From contig JALFNQ010000214.1 of NCBI GenBank assembly GCA_022773965.1, positions 1 through 32,772 of the forward strand: a stretch of DNA of 32,772 nt, read 5' to 3'. The notes under the pieces were generated by a model. The model did no database searches. It saw only the letters and a list, made by a program, of their open reading frames with translations, and was not told the origin of the DNA. Below are positions 9,086 through 27,452 of this stretch, one piece after another. Every line of letters starts with the position of its first letter. Positions within the stretch are counted from its first letter, which is position 1. This DNA comes from Lachnospiraceae bacterium (GTDB taxonomy: Bacteria > Bacillota > Clostridia > Lachnospirales > Lachnospiraceae). Position numbers and translations under genes: made by a program.

Positions 9086-10675
9086 ATGGAAGCAGCAGAA
9101 TATTTAGAGTGTGAACGCCGCCAGATTCACGTGATCTGCGAAAAAGGCAAAGCGATCACACAGATCACACTGGACGACGACTACAATCTGGCGGAGTATA
9201 AGCCGGACATTTTAAAGATCATTGAAGACAAAGGGCAGGTACGCATGGAGGAGATCAAGGTGGAAACGGATCTCGTGCGTCTGCGGGGAGTACTGCACTT
9301 TGAGGTGCTTTATCGGAGTAATGGTGAGGACAGTTATTTCGGAAATCTTCAGGGAGAGATCCCCTTTCAGGAAAATGTACGGATGGAGGGAGCAGGGGAA
9401 TATGACCTGGTCTATGTGGATCCGCAAATTGAGGATCTGTCTATTGGCCTGATCAATTCCCGAAAGCTGGAGATACGATCACTGATCACCATGCAATTAC
9501 AGCTGCGGCAGCCCTGCGTGCATGCACTGGCGACAGACCTTAGCGGCAGTCCGGGAGAACATGTGCAGGTGCTTCGGGAGGAGATCGAGGCGCTGGAGCT
9601 TTTGGGTCAGAAAAAAGATACAAGCCGTTTCCGCACAGAGGTGTCTCTGCCCTCCAATAAGCCGGGAATCCGGGAGATCCTGTGGTATTCCATTCAGCCG
9701 CGGGGCGTGGAAAGCAGGTTAAGTGACGGGAAGATCGAGCTGGGTGGGGAATTGTTTGTACATATGGTTTATCTGGGGACGGAGGAATCAGGACAGCTGC
9801 AGTGCCTGGAACTGGCGGTGCCCTTGCAGACGCAGGTGGACGCGGAGGAGGCAGATCCGCAGCTGCTTTCGTGGGTGCGTGTGAGGCTGCTGAGCGGAGA
9901 ACTTGAGGCGGCGGAGGATTTTGACGGAGAGGAACGCATGCTGCAGCTTTCGGCAATGCTGGAGGTGGATTATACATTATGGCAGGAGCAGACACTGACA
10001 TTGCTGCAGGATGCATATGCCACAGACCGGGATCTGAACTGTGTCAGAGAGGATGTGACGCTGCAGCATCTGCTCGTAAAAAATGATTCACGGTTTCGGA
10101 TCAATGAGCGGATGAAGCTGGATACTGCCGCACAGGTGCTACAGATCTGTTCCTGCGCGGGAAATGTGCAGGTGGAAGAGGTGACTCCTGCGGAGGGAAG
10201 GCTGGAGGTGTCCGGAATACTGAAAATGAAACTGCTCTATATCGCTGCCAATGATGAGATGCCCCTTATGACCGTAGATGAAACGCTGCCGTTTTCCGAA
10301 GTGATCGAGGTGCCGGGGCTTCTGCCGGAGATGTCAGATATCAGCTATGAACTGGAGGCAGGGATTGACCAGCTGACAACGGCGCTGATCGACCAGAGCC
10401 AGGTAGAGTGCAAGGCACAGATCCGTCTTTGTGTGATCATTTTTGAAAATCTCCATGTGAAAAATGTGGAAAAAATCGATGTATCAGAGATGGATGAAAA
10501 GCAGCTTCGGATGCAGCCTGGAATGATCGGATATATTGTGAAAAATGGCGAAAAACTGTGGGATATCGCCAAGGCGCACCGGGTGACAATGAGGCAGTTA
10601 ATGGAGCAGAACGGGCTTGCAGATGAGACGGTTCATCCAAAGGATAAGCTTATGATCGTAAAGACCATTGGTTGA
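9086..10675 (+). CDS. sipL: SPOCS (DUF3794) and LysM domain protein, SipL-like sporulation protein
   Basis: Repeated SPOCS-type segments (e.g. GVLHFEVLYRSN..., GELFVHMVYLG..., GILKMKLLYIAAND...) plus C-terminal LysM (YIVKNGEKLWDIAKAHRVTMRQLMEQNGLADETVHPKDKLMIVK). Length about that of known SipL. Confidence 0.85.
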   Translation: MEAAEYLECERRQIHVICEKGKAITQITLDDDYNLAEYKPDILKIIEDKGQVRMEEIKVETDLVRLRGVLHFEVLYRSNGEDSYFGNLQGEIPFQENVRMEGAGEYDLVYVDPQIEDLSIGLINSRKLEIRSLITMQLQLRQPCVHALATDLSGSPGEHVQVLREEIEALELLGQKKDTSRFRTEVSLPSNKPGIREILWYSIQPRGVESRLSDGKIELGGELFVHMVYLGTEESGQLQCLELAVPLQTQVDAEEADPQLLSWVRVRLLSGELEAAEDFDGEERMLQLSAMLEVDYTLWQEQTLTLLQDAYATDRDLNCVREDVTLQHLLVKNDSRFRINERMKLDTAAQVLQICSCAGNVQVEEVTPAEGRLEVSGILKMKLLYIAANDEMPLMTVDETLPFSEVIEVPGLLPEMSDISYELEAGIDQLTTALIDQSQVECKAQIRLCVIIFENLHVKNVEKIDVSEMDEKQLRMQPGMIGYIVKNGEKLWDIAKAHRVTMRQLMEQNGLADETVHPKDKLMIVKTIG

Positions 10676-10750: not shown

Positions 10751-10804
10751 ATGGATTTTTGCATCCGACTGCAAGGGGTTTCACAGGAGGAACAAATAGA
10801 ATGA
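10751..10804 (+). CDS. Candidate 17-aa uORF MDFCIRLQGVSQEEQIE coupled to the NlpC/P60 gene
   Basis: SD GAGGG 6 nt upstream. Its TGA overlaps the downstream ATG (ATGA, 10801-10804). Confidence 0.4.
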   Translation: MDFCIRLQGVSQEEQIE

Positions 10805-12087
10805 TACGAGAGAAAAAAGGCAAGAGGATTATTGCAGCTGCACTGGTAGTTGCACTGGCGGGAGGCATGTCTCAGAATATCGGAGCATCTGCCATCCGGG
10901 ACGCACAAAATAAGATCAATGAGGCAAATGAGCAGCTTGACCAGACAAACAGTAAGATTTCTGATATAGAGAAAAAACAGAATACATTACAGCAGGAGAT
11001 TGATTCACTGGATTCAGAGCTTGTGGCACTTCTTCTGGATATTGAGGTCTTAAAGGATGAAATTGCACAGAAGGAGGCAGATATCGAGCAGGCAGAATCA
11101 GATCTGGAAGAGGCGCAGAAGACGGCAGATAAGCAATATGACAGCATGAAAAAGCGGATCCGTTTTATGTATGAGCGGGGGGATAATGCGCTGGTGGAGT
11201 CATTGCTTGGTGCGGGAAGTATGGCGGACTTTTTGAACCGTGTGGAATATTTTAACCAGATCTATGACTATGACCGGACGATGCTGACCGAGTATCAGGA
11301 GACGGTTGAGCAGGTGGCAGAGTTAAAGGACACATTGGAGCAGGAACAGCAGGACATGGTGGCATTAAAAGAAAATCAGGAGCACCAGTCCGAGGAATTG
11401 CAGACGATGCTGACGAAAAAGCGTGCCACCATGGATGATTTTGACACAAAGCTGGCACAGGCAGAGGCGCTTGCGGCACAATATAAAGAGACGATCAAGG
11501 AACAGAACGACATCATCGTTGCAGAGCAGGCGCGGATCGCCGCTGAGGAAGAGGAACGCAGACGTCAGGAAGAATTAAGACGCCAGGAGGAGCTGAAACG
11601 TCAGGAGGAAGAACGACGCAGACAGGAGGCACTGGCGCAGCAACAACAACAGCAGCAACAGAGCAGCAGTTCGGGGGAAAGCTCCGGCAGCAGTTCCGGT
11701 GGCAGTGTGGATGATGGAGGGGCAAATCCCAGCTACCAGACGAATGTCAGCGGTCAGGAAGTAGTTAATTTTGCTATGCAGTTTGTGGGAAATCCTTATG
11801 TTTGGGGCGGAACCAGCCTGACAAACGGTGCAGACTGCTCCGGTTTTGTGATGAGTGTTTTTGGACATTTTGGCATCAGTCTTCCCCATAGCTCTTATGC
11901 ATTGCGCAGCTGCGGACAAGGTGTCAGCTACAGCAACGCACAGCCGGGAGATCTGATCTGTTATAGCGGTCATGTGGCAATCTATATTGGAGGCGGCCGT
12001 ATCGTGGGTGCGCAGAGCTCTGCGGTGGGTATCGCTACACAGAATGCTACTTACCGGACGATCCTCGCAGTGCGCCGTGTCCTGTAA
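10801..12087 (+). CDS. Secreted NlpC/P60 peptidoglycan hydrolase with N-terminal coiled coil
   Basis: Signal peptide (RIIAAALVVALAGGMSQNIGASA), long coiled coil, Q/E/R-rich then S/G-rich linker, NlpC/P60 catalytic domain (YVWGGTSLTNGADCSGFVMSVFGHFG...QPGDLICYSGHVAIYIGGG). SD AGGAGG. Confidence 0.93.
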   Translation: MIREKKGKRIIAAALVVALAGGMSQNIGASAIRDAQNKINEANEQLDQTNSKISDIEKKQNTLQQEIDSLDSELVALLLDIEVLKDEIAQKEADIEQAESDLEEAQKTADKQYDSMKKRIRFMYERGDNALVESLLGAGSMADFLNRVEYFNQIYDYDRTMLTEYQETVEQVAELKDTLEQEQQDMVALKENQEHQSEELQTMLTKKRATMDDFDTKLAQAEALAAQYKETIKEQNDIIVAEQARIAAEEEERRRQEELRRQEELKRQEEERRRQEALAQQQQQQQQSSSSGESSGSSSGGSVDDGGANPSYQTNVSGQEVVNFAMQFVGNPYVWGGTSLTNGADCSGFVMSVFGHFGISLPHSSYALRSCGQGVSYSNAQPGDLICYSGHVAIYIGGGRIVGAQSSAVGIATQNATYRTILAVRRVL

Positions 12088-12153: not shown

Positions 12154-12819
12154 ATGAGAGAACACCATATTGCGCAGCGGATAGGCAGGTGTCTGGCAGC
12201 AGTGCTGCTTGTCTGTGCGCTGTTCGGACTGGAGGGCTGCGGCCCCCGTATAAAGACGATTACCTTTAACGAGCATCTGGATGACACGGTGCTGGAGCTG
12301 GACGGTCAGAAATATCCCCTCCGTGAGCTGGCATTTTATGTGGCTTATGAGGAACAGATCATTCAGGAGCAGGCATTAGTTTATGATGCATCCAATCCAA
12401 ATGCCTACTGGAATACGCATATCAATGGCCATTTTATGCGGGTGCAGGCGCGGGATGAGGCCATGAGTCAGGCGATCCACGATCTCATTTTTTATGGGAT
12501 GGCAGGCGAGCTTGGCATGGAGTTGGATCAGGATGAGATCGATTATGCCACAGGACGCAGTGAGGATTTCTGGATGGATCTGGGAGAAAAAGCCCAGAAA
12601 CGGCTTGGCATTACACAAGAGGAGCTGACAGAGGATCTGCTGCGGATGGCGCTGGCGCAGAAATGCCAGCAGCTGTATGCGGCGATGCAGGATGCATTGG
12701 AGGAGGACTACAATGCGGATGGTGCCGCATATGAAACATTATTGGAAGCGCATACATACAAGATCAGAGACCGGATTTGGGAAGGGGTTTCCATGGGGCA
12801 TGTTACGCTGGATCAATAA
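12154..12819 (+). CDS. Putative lipoprotein, SurA-N/foldase-like helical protein
   Basis: Lipobox LFGLEGC near the N-terminus, helical body. A GTG start at 12145 is an alternative. Confidence 0.65.
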   Translation: MREHHIAQRIGRCLAAVLLVCALFGLEGCGPRIKTITFNEHLDDTVLELDGQKYPLRELAFYVAYEEQIIQEQALVYDASNPNAYWNTHINGHFMRVQARDEAMSQAIHDLIFYGMAGELGMELDQDEIDYATGRSEDFWMDLGEKAQKRLGITQEELTEDLLRMALAQKCQQLYAAMQDALEEDYNADGAAYETLLEAHTYKIRDRIWEGVSMGHVTLDQ

Positions 12820-12853
12820 CGAAAAAATATGAAACTAGAGGAGACAGATAAAA

Positions 12854-13771
12854 ATGAACATGCAACGAAACCGAATCAACATGGTATCAATGAGAAAACA
12901 GATCCGAATTGGGAGAAATGATCCGTGCTGGTGCAAAAGTGGCAAAAAATATAAACAGTGCCATATGGGGATGGATGAAAAGATCCAGAGGATACAGGAC
13001 GCAGGACACATTGTTCCCGACCACTCGATCATCAAAAATCAGGATCAGATCGCGGGCATCCGTCAGAGTTCAAAGATCAATATTGCAGTGCTGGATTATG
13101 TGGCTGAGCATATCAAAGAGGGCATTACCACGCAGCAGATTGATGACTGGGTATATGATCTGACGACGAAGATGGGCGGTATTCCCGCTCCCTTGAATTA
13201 CCAGGGTTATCCAAAGAGTGTCTGCACATCCATTAACAACCAGGTCTGTCATGGAATTCCGGACGAGAAGGTCGTGTTGAAGGAAGGCGATATCATCAAC
13301 GTAGACTGCTCTACGATCCTGAATGGCTATTTTTCCGATTCTTCCCGTATGTTCTGCATCGGTGAAGTCAGTCCGGAGAAAAAGCGGCTGGTAGAGGTCA
13401 CAAAGGAATGCTGCGACATCGGTCTCAAAGAGGTAAAGCCCTGGGGATTTCTGGGAGATATGGGGCAGGCGATCCATGATCATGCCTATGCAAACGGTTA
13501 TACGATTGTGCGGGAGATCGGCGGACACGGTGTCGGCATAGAATTCCACGAGGATCCGTGGGTCAGCTACAATTCCAGACGGGGAGAAGAGATGCTTATG
13601 GTTCCCGGAATGATCTTTACGATCGAGCCGATGGTCAATATGGGCAAAGTAGACATCTTTATTGATGATGACAACGGCTGGACCGCATATACGGAGGATG
13701 GTATGCCCTCCGCCCAGTGGGAGTACATGGTACTCGTCACTGAGGACGGGGCAGAGGTTCTGTCCTACTAA
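12854..13771 (+). CDS. map: Type I methionyl aminopeptidase with N-terminal SEC-C zinc motif
   Basis: [23 protein letters not shown] motif. MAP metal ligands in INVDCSTILNGYFSDSSRMF, GHGVGIEFHEDPWV, MIFTIEPM. Confidence 0.95.
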   Translation: MNMQRNRINMVSMRKQIRIGRNDPCWCKSGKKYKQCHMGMDEKIQRIQDAGHIVPDHSIIKNQDQIAGIRQSSKINIAVLDYVAEHIKEGITTQQIDDWVYDLTTKMGGIPAPLNYQGYPKSVCTSINNQVCHGIPDEKVVLKEGDIINVDCSTILNGYFSDSSRMFCIGEVSPEKKRLVEVTKECCDIGLKEVKPWGFLGDMGQAIHDHAYANGYTIVREIGGHGVGIEFHEDPWVSYNSRRGEEMLMVPGMIFTIEPMVNMGKVDIFIDDDNGWTAYTEDGMPSAQWEYMVLVTEDGAEVLSY

Positions 13772-14997: not shown

Positions 14998-15032
14998 CAT
15001 AAGGACTTCATCACCTGCGGTGACACCTTATG
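14998..15032 (+). other. Two-stem hairpin immediately upstream of the SD of the MBL gene
   Basis: CATAAGG ... CCTTATG outer stem with TCACC-TGC-GGTGA inner stem. Confidence 0.5.
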
Positions 15033-15053: not shown

Positions 15054-15878
15054 GTGAAAAAAAACCAGGTGACGATTCTCGGAGCGCGGGGAAGTATTCC
15101 GGTCAGCGGGACGCAATATGCAATCTATGGCGGAGCGACATCATGCGTTTTGCTGGAGACGGATTCACAGGCAGTGGTGTTTGATGCGGGAAGTGGTTTA
15201 TTGAATCTTCCGCAGAGCGTGTGGAAAGAACATAGGAAAGTGCATGTTTTTTTATCACATTTTCATCTGGATCATCTGATGGGGATACCGATGAGTCCCA
15301 TGATGTACGATGAGACTGCAGAAGTGGTCTTTTATGCGAAAAACGGAGAGAAAATCCCTCAGGTGTTCCAGCAGATGATGGCGGAGCCCTTGTGGCCCGT
15401 GGGACCCAGCTCGTTTCGCGCAAAGCTGGACTATCGCAGCATTGGCACGCAGCCGGTGATCTTGCGGGAGGAAGGTCAGGCAGAAAACCCGCTTGTGGTT
15501 GCGTCATTTCCAGTGACGCATCCGGGCGGCGCGCTGGCATTTCGTGCAAACTGGGACGCACACAGCGTTGTCTATGCTACGGATTGTGATCCGGACGAGG
15601 GAACGGGACGCCTGCTGGAACGTTTTGCGGCAGACGCAGACCTGTTTGTTTTGGATGCGCAATATACGGATGAGGAATACGAGCGGTGCAGGGGGTTTGG
15701 ACATCCGGGCATGAGAACCTCCGCGCAGATCATCACAGCCAGCGGGGCGGCGCGGGGATTGTTTTTCCATCATGCACCGAACCACACAGATGCGCAGCTG
15801 TATGAGATGGAAAAAAGCCTGCAGCAATATCGGGACAATATTTCTTATGCCAGAGAGGGAGAGGTCATCCCATTATGA
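15054..15878 (+). CDS. MBL-fold metallohydrolase (RNase Z / cAMP-phosphodiesterase-like group)
   Basis: VFLSHFHLDHLMG (HxHxDH), further His/Asp motifs (VTHPGG, YATDCDPDEG, GHPG, FFHHAPNHTD). The GTG at 15054 behind GGAGGAG is favoured over the ATG at 15030. Confidence 0.85.
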   Translation: MKKNQVTILGARGSIPVSGTQYAIYGGATSCVLLETDSQAVVFDAGSGLLNLPQSVWKEHRKVHVFLSHFHLDHLMGIPMSPMMYDETAEVVFYAKNGEKIPQVFQQMMAEPLWPVGPSSFRAKLDYRSIGTQPVILREEGQAENPLVVASFPVTHPGGALAFRANWDAHSVVYATDCDPDEGTGRLLERFAADADLFVLDAQYTDEEYERCRGFGHPGMRTSAQIITASGAARGLFFHHAPNHTDAQLYEMEKSLQQYRDNISYAREGEVIPL

Positions 15879-17347
15879 AAAACGATACACTGCAGAAAAT
15901 ATTGAATATCGGTATTGCATTTTCAAAGGAAAAGGATAGGGAGCGGCTGTTAGACCAGATACTGACAGCAGCCATGGACATGACACGTTGTGATGGCGGA
16001 ACGCTGTATATCAATAACGGAGATGCGCTGGAGTTTAAGATCATGATCACGCGGTCCAAAGGTATCCACGAGGGTGTGGGGGAGAATCAGACAACGTTGC
16101 CGCCGGTGCCTTTGTCAGAGAAAAACGTCTGCGCGTGCGGAGTATTATACCGCAGATTGATCAACATACCAGATGTATATCGCAGTGAGCGGTATGATTT
16201 TTCCGGACCGAAGAATTATGATGCGATGACCGGGTATCACACACAGTCGATGATGGTTGTGCCGCTGGAGGACGATAAGGAACATGTGATCGGCGTTGTC
16301 CAGCTGATCAATGCGTTGGATGATGAGGGGGAGATCATCCCCTTTCGGGAGGAATATGAGCAGATCCTGTTGGCGATGGGCTCGCAGGCGGCGATCTGTC
16401 TCGTAAATATGAATTATGCCCATCAGATCCGCGAAATGCTGGATTCCTATGTCAAGGTAATGTCTACGGCGATCGATGCAAGAACGCCTTACAATGCGAA
16501 CCATACGAAAAATATGGTTACCTATGCAACGCGTTTTATCTCCTGGCTGAAGGAAAAACATGCAGTTTGGGGATTCGACGAGAAAAAAATACAGGAATTT
16601 CTGATGAGTGTCTGGATGCATGATATCGGAAAACTGATCACGCCACTTGAAATTATGGATAAGCAGGACCGGCTGGCTGGAAATTATTTTCTGGTCATGA
16701 ACCGGCTGCAAAAGATCCGTCTGCTGACGCGGATCGCCCGGCTGGAAGGGCGGCTTGATGATGAAGTGTATGAACAATGTCTGGCAGAGATCAAACAGGC
16801 AGAGGAACTGGTGGTAAAGGTCAATGGGATCGGCTATCTTACGGATGAGCTGGCAGAGCAGGTGGAGCGTCTGGCAGAGCGTACTTATGAGGATGAGGAC
16901 GGTAATATACAGCTGTGGATCACACCGGAAGAGAAAGAACAGCTGCTGATACGCAAGGGAACATTGACACAGGCGGAGCGAAAGATCATGCAGGATCACG
17001 TGGAGAAAACGCGCATGATGCTGGAACAGATGACGCTCGGAGATGACTATAAGGATGTGCTTGAATGGGCACCGCAGCATCATGAGCTGCTGGATGGCAG
17101 TGGTTATCCGAGGGGATTAAAGGGGAATGAGATATGTACAGAAGTGCGTTTGCTCACGATTCTGGATGTATTTGAGGCGATGACGGCTATCGACCGGCCA
17201 TACAAAAAGCCGATGCCTGCGAAACACGCGTTCCGGATCCTGCATCAGATGGCGGATCAGGGGCAGATAGATGCAGATCTTTTGAATTTATTTGAGCAGA
17301 GCAATGCATGGGTTTCTGATGAGAGGAGCAGAGAGGAGCAGGAATGA
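15875..17347 (+). CDS. GAF domain and HD-GYP domain protein (putative c-di-GMP phosphodiesterase)
   Basis: N-terminal GAF (LTAAMDMTRCDGGTLYINNG...GVVQLINA), HDIGKLITP, HHELLDGSGYPRGLKGNEI, LDVFEAMTAIDRPYKK. ATGA overlap with the MBL gene. Confidence 0.9.
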   Translation: MKNDTLQKILNIGIAFSKEKDRERLLDQILTAAMDMTRCDGGTLYINNGDALEFKIMITRSKGIHEGVGENQTTLPPVPLSEKNVCACGVLYRRLINIPDVYRSERYDFSGPKNYDAMTGYHTQSMMVVPLEDDKEHVIGVVQLINALDDEGEIIPFREEYEQILLAMGSQAAICLVNMNYAHQIREMLDSYVKVMSTAIDARTPYNANHTKNMVTYATRFISWLKEKHAVWGFDEKKIQEFLMSVWMHDIGKLITPLEIMDKQDRLAGNYFLVMNRLQKIRLLTRIARLEGRLDDEVYEQCLAEIKQAEELVVKVNGIGYLTDELAEQVERLAERTYEDEDGNIQLWITPEEKEQLLIRKGTLTQAERKIMQDHVEKTRMMLEQMTLGDDYKDVLEWAPQHHELLDGSGYPRGLKGNEICTEVRLLTILDVFEAMTAIDRPYKKPMPAKHAFRILHQMADQGQIDADLLNLFEQSNAWVSDERSREEQE

Positions 17348-20300
17348 AAAAAAGACAGAATACGAACAGATGGAAACGGGCTGCGAGCGTTCTGACAGCG
17401 GTTGCAGTTACGTGTGCAATGGTGCTGACTTCGGTTGCACCAGCGTTTGCGGCGACAGCGCGTGCAACAACGATGAAGCTGGAAAAGACAGAGGGCACGG
17501 TTTCGCTGAAAACACAGAACGGGACGGCGCGCAGGATTACGAGCGGCATGCGTCTCTATAACGGCAATACGCTTGAAACAAAGGCGAAAAGCTATGCCTA
17601 TGTCAGTCTGGACAGTGCGAAAGCGGTAAAACTGGATCAGAGTACACTGGCAACGCTGCGTCAGAATGGAAAGGAACTGGAGCTTCTCGTAAAGAGCGGC
17701 AAGCTGTTTTTTAATGTCAGTCAGCCACTGACAGAAAAGGAGAGCATGAATGTCCGCACCTCAACGATGGTGACAGGTATCCGTGGAACCTGCGGTATCG
17801 TTGAGCATGTGACATCCACGACATCAAGGTTGTATCTCCTGGAGGGAAAAGTGACGCTCGGTTCCGGAGAGAATGCCACAACGATTCAGGGTGGACAGAC
17901 GGCTACAATTGTGGTGCAGCCGAAAAAGGAGACTTCGGGCGGTGGCAAGCCGGGAGAGAGCGAAAAAGAGCCGGTGAAGAAGATTACTGTCGAAAAGATG
18001 ACAGAGGAAAAGGTGCCTGTTTTTGCGATTCAGGAGATCGTGAAAGACCCGGTTCTGCAGGAAAAGATCGAGAAAACGACCGAACTTAAGGTTGAAAAGC
18101 TTGAGGTTGTGCTTGAGGAGGCAAAAAAAGCCGAAGAAGCCGGAAAAGATCCGGAGAAGGAGTCTGAAAAGGAAGAGGAGAAAGAAAAAGAGCCGGAGCA
18201 GACGATTCCGTCAGGTGGCGGTTCTGTGACGGTGGATCCGGCGCCGGGCAATCCGGGAACGAGTGATCCAAAACCGGAGGATCCGACACCGGAAGAGCCG
18301 GGAAAAGATGACCCCGAAACGGAAACGCCCGTCGACCCGGGGACACCGGAAGAGCCCGAGCCGGATACGCCTGTCGATCCAGGTATGCCGGAAGAGCCAG
18401 ACACGCCGAAAGACCCGACAAGAGCAACGCTGACAGGAAATGTCACATTTGCACAATTGAACGCGGCACTGGCGGAAAACGATGAGGTGATACTTGAGGG
18501 TGCGGTGACGTTAGACGCAGGTGAGCAGCTGCTGATCCCGTCCAATAAGACATTGGCTGTCAATGGCAGTATTTCGGGCGAGGGAACGATCAGCCTTGGA
18601 GAGGGAAGCACCCTTGCAAATAATGGAACGATCACGGCAGCAGATATGAATGATGCGGCGGCGCTCAGCAGCCGCGTCCGTACACTGACAGTGAGGTCTG
18701 TCAAAAATTCAGGGTGCATCCAATTGTCCGGTACTTATGCATCGGATGCAGCGTATACCTATTCAGAGGATGCGGTGTTGATCTGTGGAGATAAGGTTTC
18801 TGCGCTGTACGATGAACTGATGATGGTCGATTCAATGGGAGCTGTCACCAGCGGTACAAGTATAAAGTGTAATTATTTATATGGATCATCTTTAAATGCG
18901 TATGTGGCAGATTATCTGTATGAGCGTTCAACGACCGGTTATGTCAGCGGATCGTTCCAGCGGGATATTACGGTAAATTCTGATGTTACGGTGCGAGGTG
19001 CAGGAGGAATACATGGTGGCGTGCAGCTGTATATGTCCGGATATACGATTTGTGTTGCTGACGGAACATTGACACTGCATGGAGACATCAATGTCACAAG
19101 CAGTGGCAGCAAGCCCACCATGTCCCTGCAGGGTGGACACTTGAAGATGACGGGAGTCAGTGAGACAAACAACGCGATCATCCACAATATGGGATCAGGC
19201 TATGCGATTGCCGTGTCAAATGGATCCACGATCACGTGGGAAAATCCGAATATGCTTGTTGCCGCAGAGGGCGGAAATGGCCGTATCATCGAGGGTGTAA
19301 CGCTGAATGAGAATCAACAGCCGATTGTTCCCAATTTTATGACTGTGGCAACTGGAACGTTGGAGCTGACAGCAGATCAGACGATGTTGCGGTGTAATAC
19401 ACAACCGACAGAAACATCCTTGTATGGCGAAGTGACGCTATCAACAATAAAGGAAGCCTTTGGCGAATATGACAAGGTGCATATTCGTGAGGATGCAACG
19501 CTTCAGATTCCGCAGACTGAGAGTGAGCTTCTGATCCCGGCAGGCAAAGAGCTTGTTGTGTGGGGAACACAAAGTATCCCTACCGGAACAGCCATTCAGG
19601 TAGGCGATGGAAGTAAGCAGGCACTGTTATGTGTGACAGAAGGCTCTGAATTGACAGCAGGAGAGATCCATGTGTCAGCAGGAAGCCGTTTAGAGGATCA
19701 TGGTACGCTGAACTGTATCGGATTAACTGGTGGGACAGGCTCGGAGCTAATCAATAATTATAGCCTGAATGTGAATGGGACTATGCAGCTTTCAAATGGT
19801 GCAGTCTATGAAAATCATGGCGAAATGAATGGAATAGATCTGACCAGTGAAGGCGGCGCTGAGATAATAAATTCAGATGTTATCAAGCTGAGTGGTGCGT
19901 ATACTTCCAAGGGAACGGACAGCTATGATGATGGCGCTGTCGGAACGCTCATCAGTGAAGGCGAGTCGACTGCGATGCCAGGAGATCGATTGCTTTTGAA
20001 AGATTGGATGGTGTTAGAAGATTCTTCAGCGTCACAGAACTGTGTATATTCATTTGGTTTTAATCAGAATGTAGCTGACCATCTGGAAGAGCGTTCGCAG
20101 CTGCAGACTGTTACTGCATACGCTTGTAAAAATTTGATTGTGGCATCGCCCGTCAATATTAGAAGCAATTCTAATGGGTTGGAGCTGCAATTGGGAAGCT
20201 ATACGTTACAGATATCAAATGGTGGGGGACTGACTCTAGGCAATAATGTCAAGATTTTAAGTGAGAATTCCCGACAGACAGTATTGCTTTCGGGTAATGG

Positions 20301-22941
20301 AAGCCTTGAGCTGCTAGGTGGTACACATGGTGCCTGGATTTCTAACAACGGTGGCGGGTATGGAATTGCGCGTGCAGATGATGCTACAGGAAAGGTTACA
20401 TGGAGTTTCCAGTATAGTGGAGAGAAAGATCTTGGTATCACCGCAAACTCACTGGAATATACGATCCAGGGGTGTAGCATGAACACAGATGGCAGCATCG
20501 CAATGCCGGAATATGTGATCACAGAGGGTATTATGTATTATGCGGATGGCAGTCTGTATCAGCTGTATCCGTTACGTGCGACAACATTATCTGGTGAAGT
20601 GACGGCTGAAACACTGCAGAAAGCATATCTGGAATATGGAGTGATTACGCTTGATGAGGGTGCAACACTGAAGCTTAATGATGATGATGCATTTGTGATT
20701 CCGGGTGGTAAAATACTGAATATATATGGAGATCAGTCAATTCCGACATCGATAACGATTCAGGTGGGTGACGGACGAAAAGAAACACAGTTAAATTTTA
20801 ACGGTACCGCGACTGCCGGAGCTATTCGTGTCATGGCAAAGGGCCAATTTGATTCTGGAAAAGTGCTGAATTGTACAGAACTGACTTGTGCTGCAGATTC
20901 AAAAGCAAGTAATAATGGAGAACTGAACGTAAGTGGAACCGTACATCTGATGAGCGGTGCGTATTATGCAAACTATCAGACATTAAACGCGCAGGCATTA
21001 GAGAGCGAAGGCAGTGCTACGATTTATAATACCGGTTATATTGGATTGCAAGGAACATATACATCAGCCGGAACAGATACATATGAAGAGTGTGGGCTTG
21101 GAATATGCGTTTGCGGAACAGCGTCCAAAGCAATGCCGGAAGGACTACTACTTGTGAGGGAGAAGACAACGCCTTCTACGAATGTTTCAGAGCCGGAAAA
21201 TTTTGTGTATGCATCAGTTTTAAATCAGAGAGTAGCAAATTATTTGTGCGGACGTGCAAAAACAGGAAATGTGAATGCAAGTTTTTGCAGAAATGTGCAG
21301 GTGAAATCATCTGTAGAACTGGATGTAAAGCAGGATCAATCATCTACTGCCCATTATGGTATATATTTGGTGCTGGGAGAATATTCTCTGGAAGTAGCTG
21401 CTAACGTATTGACGATTGGATCAGATGTTAGTATTGGAAGTATTCATCCTGATCAGACGATTCTGCTTTCAGGTAACGCCGGGTTGGAGCTGGTTGGAGG
21501 GAGTCAGTTCAATGCCCAGATCAGCAATACGGGCGATGGCTATGTGATTGCCCGTGCCGATGATGCGACAGGAACTGTGTTCTGGCGTGACACAGGTATG
21601 GGTATGTGCTCCAGTGCAGATAAATTCGTACCGGACTGCAGCATAAACGCGGCAGATGGCACGGTATCTATGCCGGATTATGTAAATGTGCAGGGCATGG
21701 TAACGTACAAGGAGGGCACTCTGGGACTTACGGCGGTGCCGGATACGTTTACAGCTGCAGATGAAGTGACAACTGCGAAGCTGCAGGCGGCGTTACGGGC
21801 ATACCGTTCAGTCACGATTGATCAAACAGCAAAAGCGACCATGAGCGAAACAGATACACTGACGATTCCGTCTGGAAAGGTACTCTACGTGAATGCTAAG
21901 ATGACGCAGGTGGGTACAGCATATTCCGGTGGTTTTTCTATGAATAAGGGTTCCAGGATCGTAATAGAGCCGGGGGCGTACATGGAGGTCAGTGGTATTG
22001 TGATGGGAAACGGAACGATTGAAGCCCGGACAAGCAGCACCAGTGGAGGGGCTGCGCTGACCGTGCACACCGGAGGGCAGGTTGTTGCAGAAGAGATCAA
22101 TATTGGCAGCGGGGTAACGTTTACCAATAATGGAATCGTTGATATCGGAGCCCTGAATAGCGCCGGAGGAGCGACGATCAACAACACAGAGCTTATAAAG
22201 ATTCATACTGCATATAAGTATACGACAGAGGGTGTGACAGACACCTATACAGGTACTTATGCCAGTGTGCTGATCAGTAATGCAGAGTCCACAGCCATGC
22301 CTGCGGGGTCAGAGCTGTTAAATGCATATATCACAGGTGACAGCGGTACGAAGGAGCATGTGCAGTATTATTATGCGGATTATCTCAATACGCGTGCAGG
22401 TGATTATATCAATAAGATCATAGGAACCTACCGTGATGATAAACAACAGAAGCTTTGGTGGGATTTCCAGAAAAATGCACCTGTGAAGAGTGCTACAACG
22501 ACCACACTGACTGATTTTAATGCTGATCTGGGAACTTATTCCATTCAGGTTTCAGGTAAGCTGGTGCTGGATAACCAGACGTGCGGAACGATCACCGGCA
22601 GCGGAACGACGCTCTTTGACATGCAGGGTGGAACGCTGGACCTGACAGGAACGACAGGAACGCTTCAGTCTGGCATGACATCCACCGGAGAAATCACACC
22701 GGCAGACAGCTATGTGATCAAGGGCTCACAGTCGCCTTACCAGATCTACTGGAATAATCCGGGGCTTACGATGAGTGCGCCGAATGGATTAAATAAAACG
22801 GTAGACAACCTTTACCTCAATTCGGATGGATCGGCAGTTGTAAATCCTGACAATGCATATTTGGGAATTTTAAACGAATATCAATTAGTATGGGATGCAC
22901 CAACAAATACACTGGCAATAAGTCCGGTATCTGGTTCTTAA
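17344..22941 (+). CDS. Giant secreted FecR-domain protein (1865 aa) with P/E-rich linker and four large repeat modules
   Basis: Signal peptide (KRAASVLTAVAVTCAMVLTSVAPAFAA), FecR domain (TMKLEKTEGTVSLKTQNG...TSTMVTGIRGTCGIVEHV...LYLLEGKVTL), linker ETPVDPGTPEEPEPDTPVDPGMPEEPDTP, then repeated modules. ATGA overlap with the upstream gene. Confidence 0.92.
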   Translation: MKKRQNTNRWKRAASVLTAVAVTCAMVLTSVAPAFAATARATTMKLEKTEGTVSLKTQNGTARRITSGMRLYNGNTLETKAKSYAYVSLDSAKAVKLDQSTLATLRQNGKELELLVKSGKLFFNVSQPLTEKESMNVRTSTMVTGIRGTCGIVEHVTSTTSRLYLLEGKVTLGSGENATTIQGGQTATIVVQPKKETSGGGKPGESEKEPVKKITVEKMTEEKVPVFAIQEIVKDPVLQEKIEKTTELKVEKLEVVLEEAKKAEEAGKDPEKESEKEEEKEKEPEQTIPSGGGSVTVDPAPGNPGTSDPKPEDPTPEEPGKDDPETETPVDPGTPEEPEPDTPVDPGMPEEPDTPKDPTRATLTGNVTFAQLNAALAENDEVILEGAVTLDAGEQLLIPSNKTLAVNGSISGEGTISLGEGSTLANNGTITAADMNDAAALSSRVRTLTVRSVKNSGCIQLSGTYASDAAYTYSEDAVLICGDKVSALYDELMMVDSMGAVTSGTSIKCNYLYGSSLNAYVADYLYERSTTGYVSGSFQRDITVNSDVTVRGAGGIHGGVQLYMSGYTICVADGTLTLHGDINVTSSGSKPTMSLQGGHLKMTGVSETNNAIIHNMGSGYAIAVSNGSTITWENPNMLVAAEGGNGRIIEGVTLNENQQPIVPNFMTVATGTLELTADQTMLRCNTQPTETSLYGEVTLSTIKEAFGEYDKVHIREDATLQIPQTESELLIPAGKELVVWGTQSIPTGTAIQVGDGSKQALLCVTEGSELTAGEIHVSAGSRLEDHGTLNCIGLTGGTGSELINNYSLNVNGTMQLSNGAVYENHGEMNGIDLTSEGGAEIINSDVIKLSGAYTSKGTDSYDDGAVGTLISEGESTAMPGDRLLLKDWMVLEDSSASQNCVYSFGFNQNVADHLEERSQLQTVTAYACKNLIVASPVNIRSNSNGLELQLGSYTLQISNGGGLTLGNNVKILSENSRQTVLLSGNGSLELLGGTHGAWISNNGGGYGIARADDATGKVTWSFQYSGEKDLGITANSLEYTIQGCSMNTDGSIAMPEYVITEGIMYYADGSLYQLYPLRATTLSGEVTAETLQKAYLEYGVITLDEGATLKLNDDDAFVIPGGKILNIYGDQSIPTSITIQVGDGRKETQLNFNGTATAGAIRVMAKGQFDSGKVLNCTELTCAADSKASNNGELNVSGTVHLMSGAYYANYQTLNAQALESEGSATIYNTGYIGLQGTYTSAGTDTYEECGLGICVCGTASKAMPEGLLLVREKTTPSTNVSEPENFVYASVLNQRVANYLCGRAKTGNVNASFCRNVQVKSSVELDVKQDQSSTAHYGIYLVLGEYSLEVAANVLTIGSDVSIGSIHPDQTILLSGNAGLELVGGSQFNAQISNTGDGYVIARADDATGTVFWRDTGMGMCSSADKFVPDCSINAADGTVSMPDYVNVQGMVTYKEGTLGLTAVPDTFTAADEVTTAKLQAALRAYRSVTIDQTAKATMSETDTLTIPSGKVLYVNAKMTQVGTAYSGGFSMNKGSRIVIEPGAYMEVSGIVMGNGTIEARTSSTSGGAALTVHTGGQVVAEEINIGSGVTFTNNGIVDIGALNSAGGATINNTELIKIHTAYKYTTEGVTDTYTGTYASVLISNAESTAMPAGSELLNAYITGDSGTKEHVQYYYADYLNTRAGDYINKIIGTYRDDKQQKLWWDFQKNAPVKSATTTTLTDFNADLGTYSIQVSGKLVLDNQTCGTITGSGTTLFDMQGGTLDLTGTTGTLQSGMTSTGEITPADSYVIKGSQSPYQIYWNNPGLTMSAPNGLNKTVDNLYLNSDGSAVVNPDNAYLGILNEYQLVWDAPTNTLAISPVSGS
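18421..19410 (+). repeat. FecR-protein module A
   Basis: Starts RATLTGNVTFAQLNAALAENDEVIL; contains YVADYLYERSTTGYV and NAIIHNMGSGYAIAVSNGSTITWENP. Confidence 0.65.
19411..20577 (+). repeat. FecR-protein module B
   Basis: Starts TSLYGEVTLSTIKEAFGEYDKVHI; contains ESTAMPGDRLLL, NVADHLEERS, AWISNNGGGYGIARADDATGKVTW. Confidence 0.75.
20578..21749 (+). repeat. FecR-protein module C
   Basis: Starts TTLSGEVTAETLQKAYLEYGVITL; contains ASKAMPEGLLLV, RVANYLCGRAKTGNV, AQISNTGDGYVIARADDATGTVFW. Confidence 0.75.
21750..22941 (+). repeat. FecR-protein module D (C-terminal)
   Basis: Starts TAADEVTTAKLQAALRAYRSVTI; contains ESTAMPAGSELL, YYADYLNTRAGDYI, DSYVIKGSQSPYQIYWNNP. Confidence 0.65.
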
Positions 22942-22967
22942 TAGTACTTTTTATGTGATACAACAAT

Positions 22968-24833
22968 ATGAAACAGCGAGAAAGAACTGGTGGAATGAAA
23001 AAGGAACAAGCTTCAGCGAACAAACGCCCCTTTTGGCGTACACTCCTCGGCGGCGTAGCCGCCGGGGCACTCTTTGCCGGAATCTGCGCATCGAATCTCA
23101 TGTATGCGCAGGATTCCTTTGTGGCGGACGCACTTTATCAGCACGCAACGCCGCAGGACGGACAGATTGTGCTCATCAATATCGACCAGAAGAGTCTGGA
23201 TGCCCTCGGACCCTTTGCCTCATGGGGCAGGGCACTTATGGGCGATGTGATCAATACATTAAATCAGGATCCGGAGCAGTCACCGGCAGTGATCGCACTC
23301 GATGTGCTCTATGTCGGAGAATCTGACGATCCGGATGGCGATTCCTATTTGGCAGAAGCATGCGCAAACAGCTGTCCGGTGGTGACAGCGTGTGCAGGCA
23401 CCTTTGGTTCACAGCTTGTGGAAAATGCGGACGGCAGCTTTTACATGGACGATTACGCGCTGATCGCATATGATGAACCATATGAAGAACTGAGAAACGC
23501 CACCTGGCAGGGGCATATCAACTCCATGTTCGATGCGGACGGTATTCTCCGCCACGGAATCTGGCAGATCGACCTGCCGGACGGAGAGGAGATCCCGTCC
23601 TTTCACCGGCAGATCTACGAGCTGTACTCGGAACAGACCGGGCAGCAGGCAGAAGCGGTGCCTGTGACGGACAGCCATTATCGCTATTATATCCCGTTTC
23701 AGGGAAAACCGGGTGCCTACAGCGACGGTTATAGCGTGATCGATCTTTTAAATGGGGAGATCGATCCGTCGGCGTATGCCGGAAAGATTGTGCTGATCGG
23801 ACCCTATGCGGCAGGTATGCAGGATGATTTTGCCACCGCCATCGATCACGCCGGAAAGATGTACGGTATCGAGTATCAGGCAAATATGATCGATGCCCTG
23901 CTTCACGGGCAGACAAAGCGTGAGGCAGGCCGGGCACCACAGGTCGCAGCAGTGTTTGTGGTGACGCTTTTGTGGGCACTGCTCTTTTCCAGACGCAGGC
24001 TTCGCACAGTGATCGCAGGGTGGATCTGTACCGTGGCAGGCTATATTGGCATCTGCGTGGCAGCGTATGGAAAAGGCATCGTTTTGTCGCCGTTGTATAT
24101 ACCGTTGTCCGTGACGATCCTGTTCGTGTGCAGTATCGCTTCCGGGTATCTGCGGGCAGCGCTGGAAAAACGGCGCGTAACGGCAACATTCCAGCGTTAT
24201 GTGGCACCGGAGATCGTTGCGGAATTGTTAAAAGAAGGCTCCGATGCGGCAGCGCTTGGTGGAAAACTGTGTGACATTGCAGTGCTTTTTGTGGATATCC
24301 GTGGCTTTACAACGATGTCGGAGATCTTAGAGCCGGAGGAGGTCGTACAGATCCTGAACAGATATCTGACGCTGACCAGTACGTGTATTTTCGATAACGG
24401 CGGCACGCTGGATAAGTTTGTAGGAGACTGTACGATGGCATTCTGGGGCGCACCGCTGCCGCAGGAGGACAGTATCTATAAAGCGGTGAAGACGGCATTT
24501 GACATGATCGAGCGCTCGGCGGCATTGCAGAAGGAGCTGGAAGAAAAGTTTGGAAGAACGGTGAGCTTTGGTGTCGGCGTCCATTATGGACCGGCAGTCG
24601 TAGGAAACATCGGAGCGCCAAACCGCATGGATTACACCGCCATCGGTGATACGGTCAACACGGCGGCGCGGCTGGAGGCAAACGCTCCGGGCGGTTGCAT
24701 TTATGTCAGCCATGCGGTGGCGGAGGCGCTGACAGGGCGGGTAAGCTTCACTTCCCTTGGTGATACGGTGCCGCTCAAGGGCAAGGCAGCAGGTTTCGAG
24801 GTGCTGCGTGCGGAAAAAATTCTGGAAAAATGA
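22968..24833 (+). CDS. CHASE2 sensor domain plus class III adenylate/guanylate cyclase
   Basis: N-terminal TM, extracellular CHASE2-like region (VLINIDQKSLDALGPFASWGRALMGDVINTL...VIALDVLY...KIVLIGPYA), TM cluster, then cyclase catalytic motifs (VLFVDIRGFTTMSE, TLDKFVGDCTMAFWG, DYTAIGDTVNTAARLEA). Start may be 22995. Confidence 0.93.
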   Translation: MKQRERTGGMKKEQASANKRPFWRTLLGGVAAGALFAGICASNLMYAQDSFVADALYQHATPQDGQIVLINIDQKSLDALGPFASWGRALMGDVINTLNQDPEQSPAVIALDVLYVGESDDPDGDSYLAEACANSCPVVTACAGTFGSQLVENADGSFYMDDYALIAYDEPYEELRNATWQGHINSMFDADGILRHGIWQIDLPDGEEIPSFHRQIYELYSEQTGQQAEAVPVTDSHYRYYIPFQGKPGAYSDGYSVIDLLNGEIDPSAYAGKIVLIGPYAAGMQDDFATAIDHAGKMYGIEYQANMIDALLHGQTKREAGRAPQVAAVFVVTLLWALLFSRRRLRTVIAGWICTVAGYIGICVAAYGKGIVLSPLYIPLSVTILFVCSIASGYLRAALEKRRVTATFQRYVAPEIVAELLKEGSDAAALGGKLCDIAVLFVDIRGFTTMSEILEPEEVVQILNRYLTLTSTCIFDNGGTLDKFVGDCTMAFWGAPLPQEDSIYKAVKTAFDMIERSAALQKELEEKFGRTVSFGVGVHYGPAVVGNIGAPNRMDYTAIGDTVNTAARLEANAPGGCIYVSHAVAEALTGRVSFTSLGDTVPLKGKAAGFEVLRAEKILEK

Positions 24834-24867
24834 GGATGACCGATAGAGACACAGGAGAAGCAGGAAC

Positions 24868-25863
24868 ATGAAAAAACAAGGATTAATTTTTATTTTGACA
24901 TTGGCACTGACATGCGCCGGAAACCTTTCAACGCTGTCTGTACAGGCAGCAACGGATACACAGACGGAGGCAGCAGCTGACCAAGCCTCAGAAGCGTTTG
25001 CGGTGTCCGGCATCGCAAAGGATGGGAAAGGCGGCATGTATCTGGCAGACCGTGTGCACCATGTGTTGCGTATCCGCACCAAAAACGGGACATATCAGGT
25101 GCTTGCAGGAAAGGCGGACAAGTCCGGATATAAAAACGGGAGTGCCGCATCGGCGCGTTTTAATGCTCCGTGGGATGTGGTTGCCTACCAGGGTGGATGG
25201 CTGATCTCTGACAGCGAAAATCATGCGTTGCGGCTGTACAAAAATGGGAAGATAACAACCATTGCAGGTACAGGCAAGGCCGGATACAAGGATGCCACCG
25301 GGAAAAAAGCAAAATTCAACCGTCCCACCGGAATGGCGGAGGGGAAGAACGGAGAGATCTATCTTGCAGATACCGGAAATCATGTGATCCGAAGGATCGA
25401 TCAGAACGGCAGGGTAACGACCTACGCCGGAGGGAAAGCCGGCTGTGCGGACGGCACCTTGAAAAAGGCGCGTTTTTTGGAGCCCACGGGATTGTATTAC
25501 TATCAGGGAGCTCTGTATGTGGCCGATTCCGGTAACCACCGGATCTGCATGATCAAAAATGGTAAAGTGACCACAGTAGCCGGCAGTGCGAAAGGGATTG
25601 AAGGTTCACAGGATGGAAGTGCATTAAAGGCGCGTCTGTCCAATCCACAGGATATTTTTGTGACGAAACATGCGGTATACATTTCTGATACCGGAAACGG
25701 ATGTGTCAGAAAACTGTCCAAAGGAAAAGTAACAACATTGATAGATGCGTTTTCCATGAATGATGGTCGTACACCGGCAGAGCCTTGCGGACTGACCGTG
25801 CAGGGTGGAAAACTGTATGTAGGAGATATTTTTACAGAAGAATTATTGGAACTGGAATTATAA
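24868..25863 (+). CDS. Secreted NHL-repeat beta-propeller protein
   Basis: Signal peptide, then about five NHL-type repeats (FNRPTGMAEGKNGEIYLADTGNHVIRRID, FLEPTGLYYYQGALYVADSGNHRICMI, LSNPQDIFVTKHAVYISDTGNGCVRKL). Confidence 0.9.
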   Translation: MKKQGLIFILTLALTCAGNLSTLSVQAATDTQTEAAADQASEAFAVSGIAKDGKGGMYLADRVHHVLRIRTKNGTYQVLAGKADKSGYKNGSAASARFNAPWDVVAYQGGWLISDSENHALRLYKNGKITTIAGTGKAGYKDATGKKAKFNRPTGMAEGKNGEIYLADTGNHVIRRIDQNGRVTTYAGGKAGCADGTLKKARFLEPTGLYYYQGALYVADSGNHRICMIKNGKVTTVAGSAKGIEGSQDGSALKARLSNPQDIFVTKHAVYISDTGNGCVRKLSKGKVTTLIDAFSMNDGRTPAEPCGLTVQGGKLYVGDIFTEELLELEL

Positions 25864-25923
25864 TGAGTGCTGATCGTGACCGGTTATGTCACGATCAAAA
25901 GAGTATTGTTGGGGGAAGGTCAT

Positions 25924-26577
25924 ATGAAAATAGGAGAAATACCGGTGAACGCCACGATCCAGATTCGCGTGATAAAGGGTGAAAAACGGTTTGAATGTAT
26001 AGGCGTTGTGGTAGCCACAAGGGATGACGGACTTTATCTGACACCTATCAAATACGAGGGGCAGATGTTGGATTTTTCCAGTGACAAAATACAGATTCTG
26101 GTGTTTTATGTCAACTCTGACCGACAGGCCTTTGGCTGGAGCGGTTGTCGGATCCGAAAAGATATTTATCAGGGAAAGCTTTGTCATCTTTTGACAACCA
26201 AGCGTGACAGCGTCCGTGTGAACCGCCGTGGAGAACCCCGGATCCGCACAGAGTTGAATGCGGTGTTGCGCATTCTTTCAGATGATAATGAACGGGAGAT
26301 CGTTGTGCGAAACTACAGTGAGAATGGAATTGGATTTGTCTGTGCAAAACCGATTCAGGAGCGTGACTGGAAACCTGTCTCGATCATTTATGAGGACAGG
26401 TTGTATCAGCTGCGCATCGGTTTGCGTGTGAATATCCTGCGGGGCATGGAGCTGCCCAATGGTCTGTATAAATATGGCGGGCACATTATACAGCCGGAGG
26501 AGGCGTGGCTGAGCTATGTCAGAAATAAACTGGAAAAGATCAGACAGAACGAACAGAAGGACGGAGATCTGAAATAA
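25924..26577 (+). CDS. PilZ-domain protein (YcgR-like, putative c-di-GMP receptor)
   Basis: RVNRR (RxxxR) followed by NYSENGIGF ((D/N)xSxxG). SD GGGGGAAGG before the ATG at 25924. Confidence 0.8.
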   Translation: MKIGEIPVNATIQIRVIKGEKRFECIGVVVATRDDGLYLTPIKYEGQMLDFSSDKIQILVFYVNSDRQAFGWSGCRIRKDIYQGKLCHLLTTKRDSVRVNRRGEPRIRTELNAVLRILSDDNEREIVVRNYSENGIGFVCAKPIQERDWKPVSIIYEDRLYQLRIGLRVNILRGMELPNGLYKYGGHIIQPEEAWLSYVRNKLEKIRQNEQKDGDLK

Positions 26578-26669: not shown

Positions 26670-27452
26670 ATGAAAAAGAATAAAGTATTAGCGGCACTTC
26701 TGGTTGCTGTGATGACTGCCAGTGTATTGAGCGGGTGCGGTTCCAAGGAAGATGACAAGACATTTACGGTAGGTTTTGATGCAGAGTATCCGCCTTACGG
26801 CTACATGGATGACAACGGTGATTATACCGGATTTGATCTGGAGCTGGCTGAGAAAGTGTGTGAGATGGAAGGCTGGACACTTGAGAAGAAGCCTATCGAC
26901 TGGAATTCCAAGGATATGGAGCTGGATAGCGGTGCCATCGATTGTATCTGGAACGGTTTTACCGTAGATGGCAGAGAGGATGACTACACATGGTCACAGC
27001 CTTATGTAGATAACAGTCAGGTGATCGTTGTGGCAGAGGATTCCGGTATCAGCACACTGGCTGATCTCGCAGGCAAGACTGTCGGCGTGCAGGCAGCAAG
27101 TGCGGCACTGACACTGCTTCAGGAGGATCAGGCTGAGCTGGCAGCTACCTTTGGCGGTCTGCAGGAGTTTGCTGATTATAATAGTGCTTTCGTAGAGCTG
27201 CAGGCTGGTTCTGTGGATGCGGTTGCGATGGATGTCGGTGTGGCAAATTATCAGATCAAGACCCGCGGTGAGGGATATACTATTTTATCTGAGGTATTAA
27301 ACTCTGAGAAATATGCCGTTGGCTTCAAGAAGGGAAATACCGAGCTCTGTGATATCGTGGATGCCGATCTGACCAAGCTGGCAGAGGACGGAACTATCGA
27401 AAAACTGGCTGAAAAGTACGATATTGCTGATTTGATCTGCATCGGAAAATAA
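26670..27452 (+). CDS. Amino-acid ABC transporter substrate-binding lipoprotein
   Basis: Lipobox VLSGCG, FTVGFDAEYPPYGYMDDNGDYTGFDLELAEKV, family 3 solute-binding pattern. Confidence 0.95.
   Translation: MKKNKVLAALLVAVMTASVLSGCGSKEDDKTFTVGFDAEYPPYGYMDDNGDYTGFDLELAEKVCEMEGWTLEKKPIDWNSKDMELDSGAIDCIWNGFTVDGREDDYTWSQPYVDNSQVIVVAEDSGISTLADLAGKTVGVQAASAALTLLQEDQAELAATFGGLQEFADYNSAFVELQAGSVDAVAMDVGVANYQIKTRGEGYTILSEVLNSEKYAVGFKKGNTELCDIVDADLTKLAEDGTIEKLAEKYDIADLICIGK

Follow-up and report, generated by a model that had tools for sequence, protein, structure and literature searches.

A conserved CHASE2-cyclase gene module in Clostridia that may connect cAMP to c-di-GMP signalling

Six co-directional genes were analysed in the window, by which we mean the whole 32,772-nucleotide stretch of contig JALFNQ010000214.1 (Lachnospiraceae bacterium, assembly GCA_022773965.1). 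Five of them, encoding a metallo-beta-lactamase fold (MBL) protein, a GAF-HD-GYP protein, a FecR protein, a CHASE2-cyclase and an NHL protein, form a conserved module, of which the PilZ gene that follows them is not part. These five genes probably constitute one operon for a circuit in which the FecR and NHL proteins would act on the CHASE2-cyclase, the resulting cAMP would be read by the GAF-HD-GYP protein to set c-di-GMP, and the MBL protein would be the eraser. The initial annotation had proposed a single circuit of exported parts with cAMP and c-di-GMP enzymes that included all six genes; neighbourhood, co-occurrence and fusion data bear this out for the five, and not for PilZ. Its "surface-sensing" label was a guess and is not kept here. 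The six genes are the following:

15054-15878, + strand: MBL gene, GTG start (Lactamase_B_2, PF12706, 44 bits)
15875-17347, + strand: GAF-HD-GYP gene (PF01590, 50 bits; HD_5, 116 bits)
17344-22941, + strand: gene for the FecR protein, 1865 aa (PF04773, 28 bits, at residues 76-170)
22968-24833, + strand: CHASE2-cyclase gene (PF05226, 127 bits; PF00211, Guanylate_cyc, 91 bits)
24868-25863, + strand: gene for the NHL protein, predicted to be secreted (PF01436, 72.5 bits)
25867-26577, + strand: gene for a PilZ-like protein (PF07238, 21.9 bits)

All six open reading frames were confirmed on the same strand, as were the 4-bp ATGA overlaps joining the first three genes (MBL/GAF-HD-GYP and GAF-HD-GYP/FecR) and the short gaps described for the last three (26 bp between FecR and cyclase, 34 bp between cyclase and NHL, and 3 bp between NHL and PilZ). 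The domain calls of the initial annotation were also sustained by Pfam scores over the cut-off for MBL, GAF/HD, FecR, CHASE2-cyclase and NHL, while the PilZ-like protein fell marginally below it (21.9 versus 22.5 bits), with both the RxxxR and NxSxxG motifs present. The GTG start of the MBL gene is preceded by GGAGG 8-10 bases upstream, and an in-frame ATG is also found at 15030. For the PilZ gene, the alternative ATG at 25924 has a better ribosome site and is the probable start rather than 25867, which would widen the gap after NHL to 60 bp. The 5' neighbours of the six genes are a YetF-type gene in divergent orientation and an M24 peptidase gene; on the 3' side lie an amino-acid ABC transporter, at 26670, and SecA. 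In a scan of the window, promoter- and terminator-like sites were no more frequent than in shuffled sequence.

The gene-neighbourhood comparison suggested by the initial annotation was carried out by searching public genome contigs with the cyclase only, disregarding its neighbours. The 80 loci retrieved belong to Lachnospiraceae, Oscillospiraceae and other Clostridia, and were annotated with profiles derived from the proteins of the window. Among the 35 well-flanked loci (at least 7 kb upstream and at least 2.5 kb downstream of the cyclase), FecR was found beside the cyclase in 30, HD-GYP in 25, MBL in 23 and NHL in 23. The commonest order, present in 8 loci, was MBL, HD-GYP, FecR, cyclase, NHL, which is that of the window.

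A lack of conserved co-occurrence, which the initial annotation had named as evidence against an operon, was looked for in two genome samples, 150 from the same family and 300 from the phylum, and the opposite was found. In the family sample CHASE2 was present in 30 genomes, FecR in 27 and both in 24 (24/6/3/117, Fisher p=4e-19; this and the following p-values treat genomes as independent). The window-type HD-GYP was detected in 21 of the 30 CHASE2 genomes and 2 of the 120 others (21/9/2/118, p=1e-16), and the window-type MBL in 13/30 versus 1/120 (13/17/1/119, p=8e-10). The association of CHASE2 with FecR was repeated in the phylum sample (30/6/6/258, p=2e-29). Each sample had 22 genomes in which FecR and CHASE2 lay on the same strand and within 10 kb, and all 49 FecR-CHASE2 pairs found within this distance (49/49) were on the same strand, so that FecR accompanies the CHASE2 cyclase across genera.

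The association is not complete, which counts against the circuit favoured here: 6 of the 30 CHASE2 genomes had no detectable FecR and 9 had no window-type HD-GYP, and in G004 and G011 the HD-GYP gene was located away from the cyclase. The cluster could also be a product of chance or drift without shared function, since gene order differs among loci and members are missing from some. Against this stand the odds ratios with CHASE2 across genera, about 90-215 for FecR, HD-GYP and MBL, p-values down to 2e-29, the uniform strand and several gene fusions. A chance cluster is thus extremely improbable and was rejected on the co-occurrence data.

The PilZ-like protein behaved differently. Among the annotated cyclase loci, a homologue beside the cluster was found solely in the window and in its near relative L006, and in L003 (cyclase identity 90%) a different gene follows NHL. 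PilZ was therefore rejected as a core member, leaving a five-gene module to which PilZ is a local addition.

The cyclase carries one transmembrane-like segment before its CHASE2 domain (residues 26-44) and three after it (323-341, 348-366 and 370-388). Both PF05226 and PF00211 scored over their cut-offs and all defining residues were present. The metal-binding D443/D487, the ATP-type K483/T557 and the transition-state N564/R568 were kept in 82-83 of 83 cyclase homologues, and the best reading of this protein is therefore a membrane class III adenylate cyclase with a CHASE2 input, with cAMP as its predicted product. A second CHASE2 cyclase was found on a short contig of the same genome. The initial annotation regarded cAMP synthesis as uncommon in Clostridia, which is only half right: the share of genomes with CHASE2 proteins, mostly cyclases, was 20% in the family sample and 12% in the phylum sample.

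In the GAF-HD-GYP protein the HD pair, the ligand histidines and the HHExxxGxGYP motif of HD-GYP phosphodiesterases are all present, and H210, H249, D250, H375, H402, H403, D431 and G410-Y411-P412 were invariant among 22 homologues. The best PDB match for the whole protein, by sequence and by fold, was PmGH of Persephonella marina (4mcw), which is its closest solved structure. Two features set them apart. A conserved, family-specific helical insertion of ~90 residues (about 262-350), missing in PmGH, separates the HD pair from the next ligand histidine, and the nearly invariant Tyr206 aligns with a PmGH glutamate that we take to be the third-metal ligand. The glutamate of the trinuclear PmGH-like subtype is thus lacking and a dinuclear site is expected; a third metal is not required for membership of the HD-GYP family. 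We infer c-di-GMP as the substrate, and the tyrosine at the third-metal position means that pGpG or 3'3'-cGAMP could be cleaved instead.

The GAF domain of this protein was placed closest to cyclic-nucleotide GAFs by sequence and by fold. When its profile was searched against every sequence in the PDB, GAFs of PDE5, PDE2, PDE6 and PDE10, the cAMP-binding CyaB2, PmGH and Lcd1 filled the first 21 places, and the next match was an unrelated chemoreceptor GAF with E=0.05. The fold comparison also retrieved the Lcd1 GAF with cAMP bound (5w10). Of the NKFDE signature, N146 and F157 were invariant, the lysine was mostly alanine and the acidic positions were loosely kept. The profile and fold matches suggest that the GAF could bind cAMP, the loss of the lysine being a point against. 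The cyclic-nucleotide type of this domain, which would be the specific link between the two messengers, was missed by the initial annotation.

The metal site also bears on a reading in which the cyclase makes cAMP, the GAF senses another ligand and the HD-GYP domain cleaves another cyclic dinucleotide, so that the operon would serve two signals in parallel with a single envelope sensor. The tyrosine in place of the third-metal glutamate and the ~90-residue insertion are compatible with it, as is the second-best PDB match of the HD-GYP protein, the 3'3'-cGAMP phosphodiesterase V-cGAP3. This reading is nevertheless improbable, as GGDEF outputs are exchanged into the same slot of the cluster (see below), which points to c-di-GMP, and the genome of the window contains 28 GGDEF matches.

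In the MBL protein the full di-metal ligand set (H69, H71, D73 and H74 of the HxHxDH motif, H156, D177 and H239) was invariant among 30 homologues. The predicted structure had a pLDDT of 95.7, and its closest folds were RNase Z, YhfI and PhnP; yeast cAMP PDE1 and Apyc1 ranked lower. Together these place it as a phosphodiesterase-type MBL, and it is considered a putative cAMP phosphodiesterase. Membership of two described families was rejected: the PDEase_II model (class II cAMP phosphodiesterase) matched just 1 of 30 members, and NF041851 gave 60 bits against a cut-off of 400.

At some loci the place of MBL is taken by an AP_endonuc_2 (Endo-IV-like) TIM barrel. Among 54 loci, 34 had the MBL, 10 the TIM barrel and none both, an exclusivity whose p=7.7e-6 ignores relatedness and is indicative only. 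The gene immediately 3' of the cyclase in L088 encodes a fusion of the TIM barrel with GAF-HD-GYP. The TIM barrel has a conserved His/Glu/Asp pattern resembling the set of nine metal ligands in endonuclease IV.

The FecR protein begins with a signal-like hydrophobic segment (residues 13-31), followed by the FecR domain, an acidic and proline-containing linker and four large C-terminal repeats of 330-400 aa each (359-689, 690-1078, 1079-1466 and 1467-1865), which were recovered by segment-wise self-BLAST and missed by whole-protein self-BLAST. Its length varies widely among the sampled loci, from 218 to 1681 aa. We regard it as the putative extracytoplasmic partner of CHASE2. The NHL protein has a single N-terminal hydrophobic signal-like segment, and SLH cell-wall domains were found in 10 of 19 NHL homologues, which places the propeller at the cell wall.

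Natural rearrangements of the cluster provide further support for a cAMP relay. The GAF is present as a lone protein in L036 and L049. In Butyrivibrio and others a GAF-GGDEF protein occupies the HD-GYP slot, and in L053, L058, L064 and L076 an MBL-GAF-GGDEF fusion lies 3' of the cyclase; matches to cyclic-nucleotide GAFs were again obtained for the GAFs of L032 and L058. In L085 and L086 CHASE2 is fused directly to a window-type HD-GYP, with neither GAF nor cyclase present, and in L085 FecR follows this fusion with a 4-bp overlap. Where CHASE2 touches HD-GYP directly, neither the messenger nor the GAF would be needed.

At other loci proteins with a cAMP-type CNB domain take the slot next to the cyclase, namely CNB-SpoIIE, CNB-DUF2225 (L097, L110 and L111) and HD-CNB (L021) proteins, and these replacements too favour a relay. 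CNB neighbours also bring in another explanation, namely that FecR and the CHASE2-cyclase are a sensory pair whose cAMP targets CRP-type regulators elsewhere in the cell, with HD-GYP and MBL as a separate and merely co-regulated unit. It would also agree with the phylum sample, in which most CHASE2 genomes had FecR and no window-type HD-GYP, and with the CHASE2 cyclases of S. meliloti, which act via the CRP-type Clr. However, the CNB neighbours found by profile sit where GAF-HD-GYP is missing, the GAF of the HD-GYP protein belongs to the cyclic-nucleotide class, and the CHASE2-HD-GYP fusions lack a GAF. Moreover, the two CRP/FNR-type proteins that scored over the cut-off in the genome of the window are, by eye, without the cAMP-phosphate-binding arginine of CRP, although the lack of a CRP-type receptor in a genome ~90% complete is weak evidence. 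We therefore judge this explanation unlikely, and somewhat less so than the two parallel signals considered above.

According to the single-operon circuit that we favour, the exported FecR protein and, in most cases, a wall-associated NHL propeller would report envelope state to the extracytoplasmic CHASE2 domain. The CHASE2 input would gate the membrane adenylate cyclase, and its cAMP would be sensed close by, by the GAF of the HD-GYP phosphodiesterase from the same operon. The GAF would in turn change HD-GYP activity and thereby the c-di-GMP level, most likely by activating breakdown. The MBL phosphodiesterase would remove cAMP and reset the circuit, and in the organism of the window the PilZ protein may serve as an additional reader of c-di-GMP. 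Activation is preferred to inhibition by analogy with Tlr0485, the one GAF-HD-GYP protein reported with cAMP, which is activated by it (PMC8846402).

The individual parts of the module have known relatives. In Campylobacterota the gene for a CHASE2 adenylate cyclase clusters with those for an exported protein with a FecR domain and for a cAMP phosphodiesterase (PMC9239204); those clusters include a TPR protein, their FecR is in the outer membrane, and no c-di-GMP enzyme was named as part of them, whereas the window has a GAF-HD-GYP, an NHL propeller and a Gram-positive-type envelope. In S. meliloti CHASE2 cyclases have an outer-membrane partner (PMC13001267). In the BiofilmReg operon of Burkholderiales a FecR-domain exported protein adjoins a CHASE2 sensor, and disruption of the regulator abolishes biofilm (PMC5192318), but there CHASE2 drives a histidine kinase instead of a cyclase.

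Direct control of c-di-GMP enzymes by cAMP has also been described. Tlr0485 of Thermosynechococcus is a GAF-HD-GYP c-di-GMP phosphodiesterase with cAMP reported as its activator; its described architecture is that of the window protein, and the passage on it mentions no co-encoded CHASE2-cyclase, FecR or MBL (PMC8846402). The same paper covers Lcd1 of Leptospira, a cAMP-dependent GAF-GGDEF protein. Its GAF is related to that of the window by profile and fold, and Lcd1 is a diguanylate cyclase, not a phosphodiesterase, being analogous to the GAF-GGDEF proteins that replace HD-GYP in Butyrivibrio. Bd1971 of Bdellovibrio is a c-di-GMP phosphodiesterase directly controlled by cAMP (PMC6717892), which uses CNB and EAL domains instead of GAF and HD-GYP. 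In the open-access literature no paper was found that joins a FecR/CHASE2-cyclase cluster and a cAMP-controlled c-di-GMP enzyme in one operon or that reports them from Clostridia, and nothing was found on HD-GYP with adenylate cyclase in Lachnospiraceae or on class III adenylate cyclase with c-di-GMP in Clostridia. The wiring of cAMP to c-di-GMP in a single operon was thus not found described.

On a broader and more tentative view, which we hold as possible and a little short of even, FecR-CHASE2 could be a general plug-in envelope sensor, and cAMP in gut Clostridia could serve as a private wire to an adjacent c-di-GMP enzyme (to SpoIIE-type phosphatases in relatives) rather than as a global CRP messenger, with either the MBL or the Endo-IV-like TIM barrel as eraser. 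If this is true, the TIM barrel would be a cyclic-nucleotide phosphodiesterase of a new class; the replacement pattern predicts this function for an uncharacterised family, and suggests that CHASE2 domains take their input from FecR partners. So far, a few individual enzymes are known through which cAMP and c-di-GMP signalling interact. In the present case a receptor, a cyclase, a reader and an eraser are apparently packaged in one operon of abundant and mostly unstudied gut Clostridia, which would make direct control of c-di-GMP by cAMP testable with three purified proteins.

The HD-GYP domain of the protein encoded at 15875-17347 holds a conserved helical insertion of ~90 residues (about 262-350), which is absent from PmGH of Persephonella marina (PDB 4mcw), the closest solved structure. 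Two genes upstream of the operon are related to sporulation and the cell wall, with no link to the proposed cAMP-c-di-GMP operon:
window 9086-10675, SipL-type SPOCS/LysM protein
window 10759-12087, PcsB-like NlpC/P60 hydrolase

The same genome encodes a second CHASE2-adenylate cyclase, preceded by a TetR-like regulator, and no FecR gene was visible beside it on its 3-kb contig:
G000:C130:1107-2930 (locus L001), second CHASE2-adenylate cyclase

Beside CHASE2 cyclases in other public-genome loci (L handles), the MBL slot is occupied instead by an AP_endonuc_2 TIM-barrel family, in one case fused to GAF-HD-GYP:
L102:10186-10977, TIM barrel
L103:9540-10352, TIM barrel
L089:13254-14039, TIM barrel
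L088:9777-12074, TIM barrel as N-terminal part
This family, which retains metal ligands resembling those of endonuclease IV, is a candidate new cyclic-nucleotide phosphodiesterase.

Some CHASE2 cyclases without GAF-HD-GYP are adjoined by proteins with cyclic-nucleotide-binding (CNB) domains (CNB-SpoIIE, CNB-DUF2225), and the second of two large HD-domain proteins in L021 ends C-terminally in such a domain (60.6 bits):
L097:8097-9275, CNB-domain protein
L110:6801-7931 (-), CNB-domain protein
L111:7565-8743 and 12581-13723, two CNB-domain proteins
L021:4283-8642, two HD-domain proteins upstream of the cyclase

A direct fusion of CHASE2 to the window's HD-GYP type, with neither cyclase nor GAF, also exists, as does a fusion to a SpoIIE phosphatase:
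L085:8657-10711, CHASE2-HD-GYP fusion
L086:7613-9655 (-), CHASE2-HD-GYP fusion
L109:11851-13791, CHASE2-SpoIIE phosphatase fusion
FecR and NHL genes lie upstream of the CHASE2-SpoIIE fusion, which would be an alternative output for this putative input pair.
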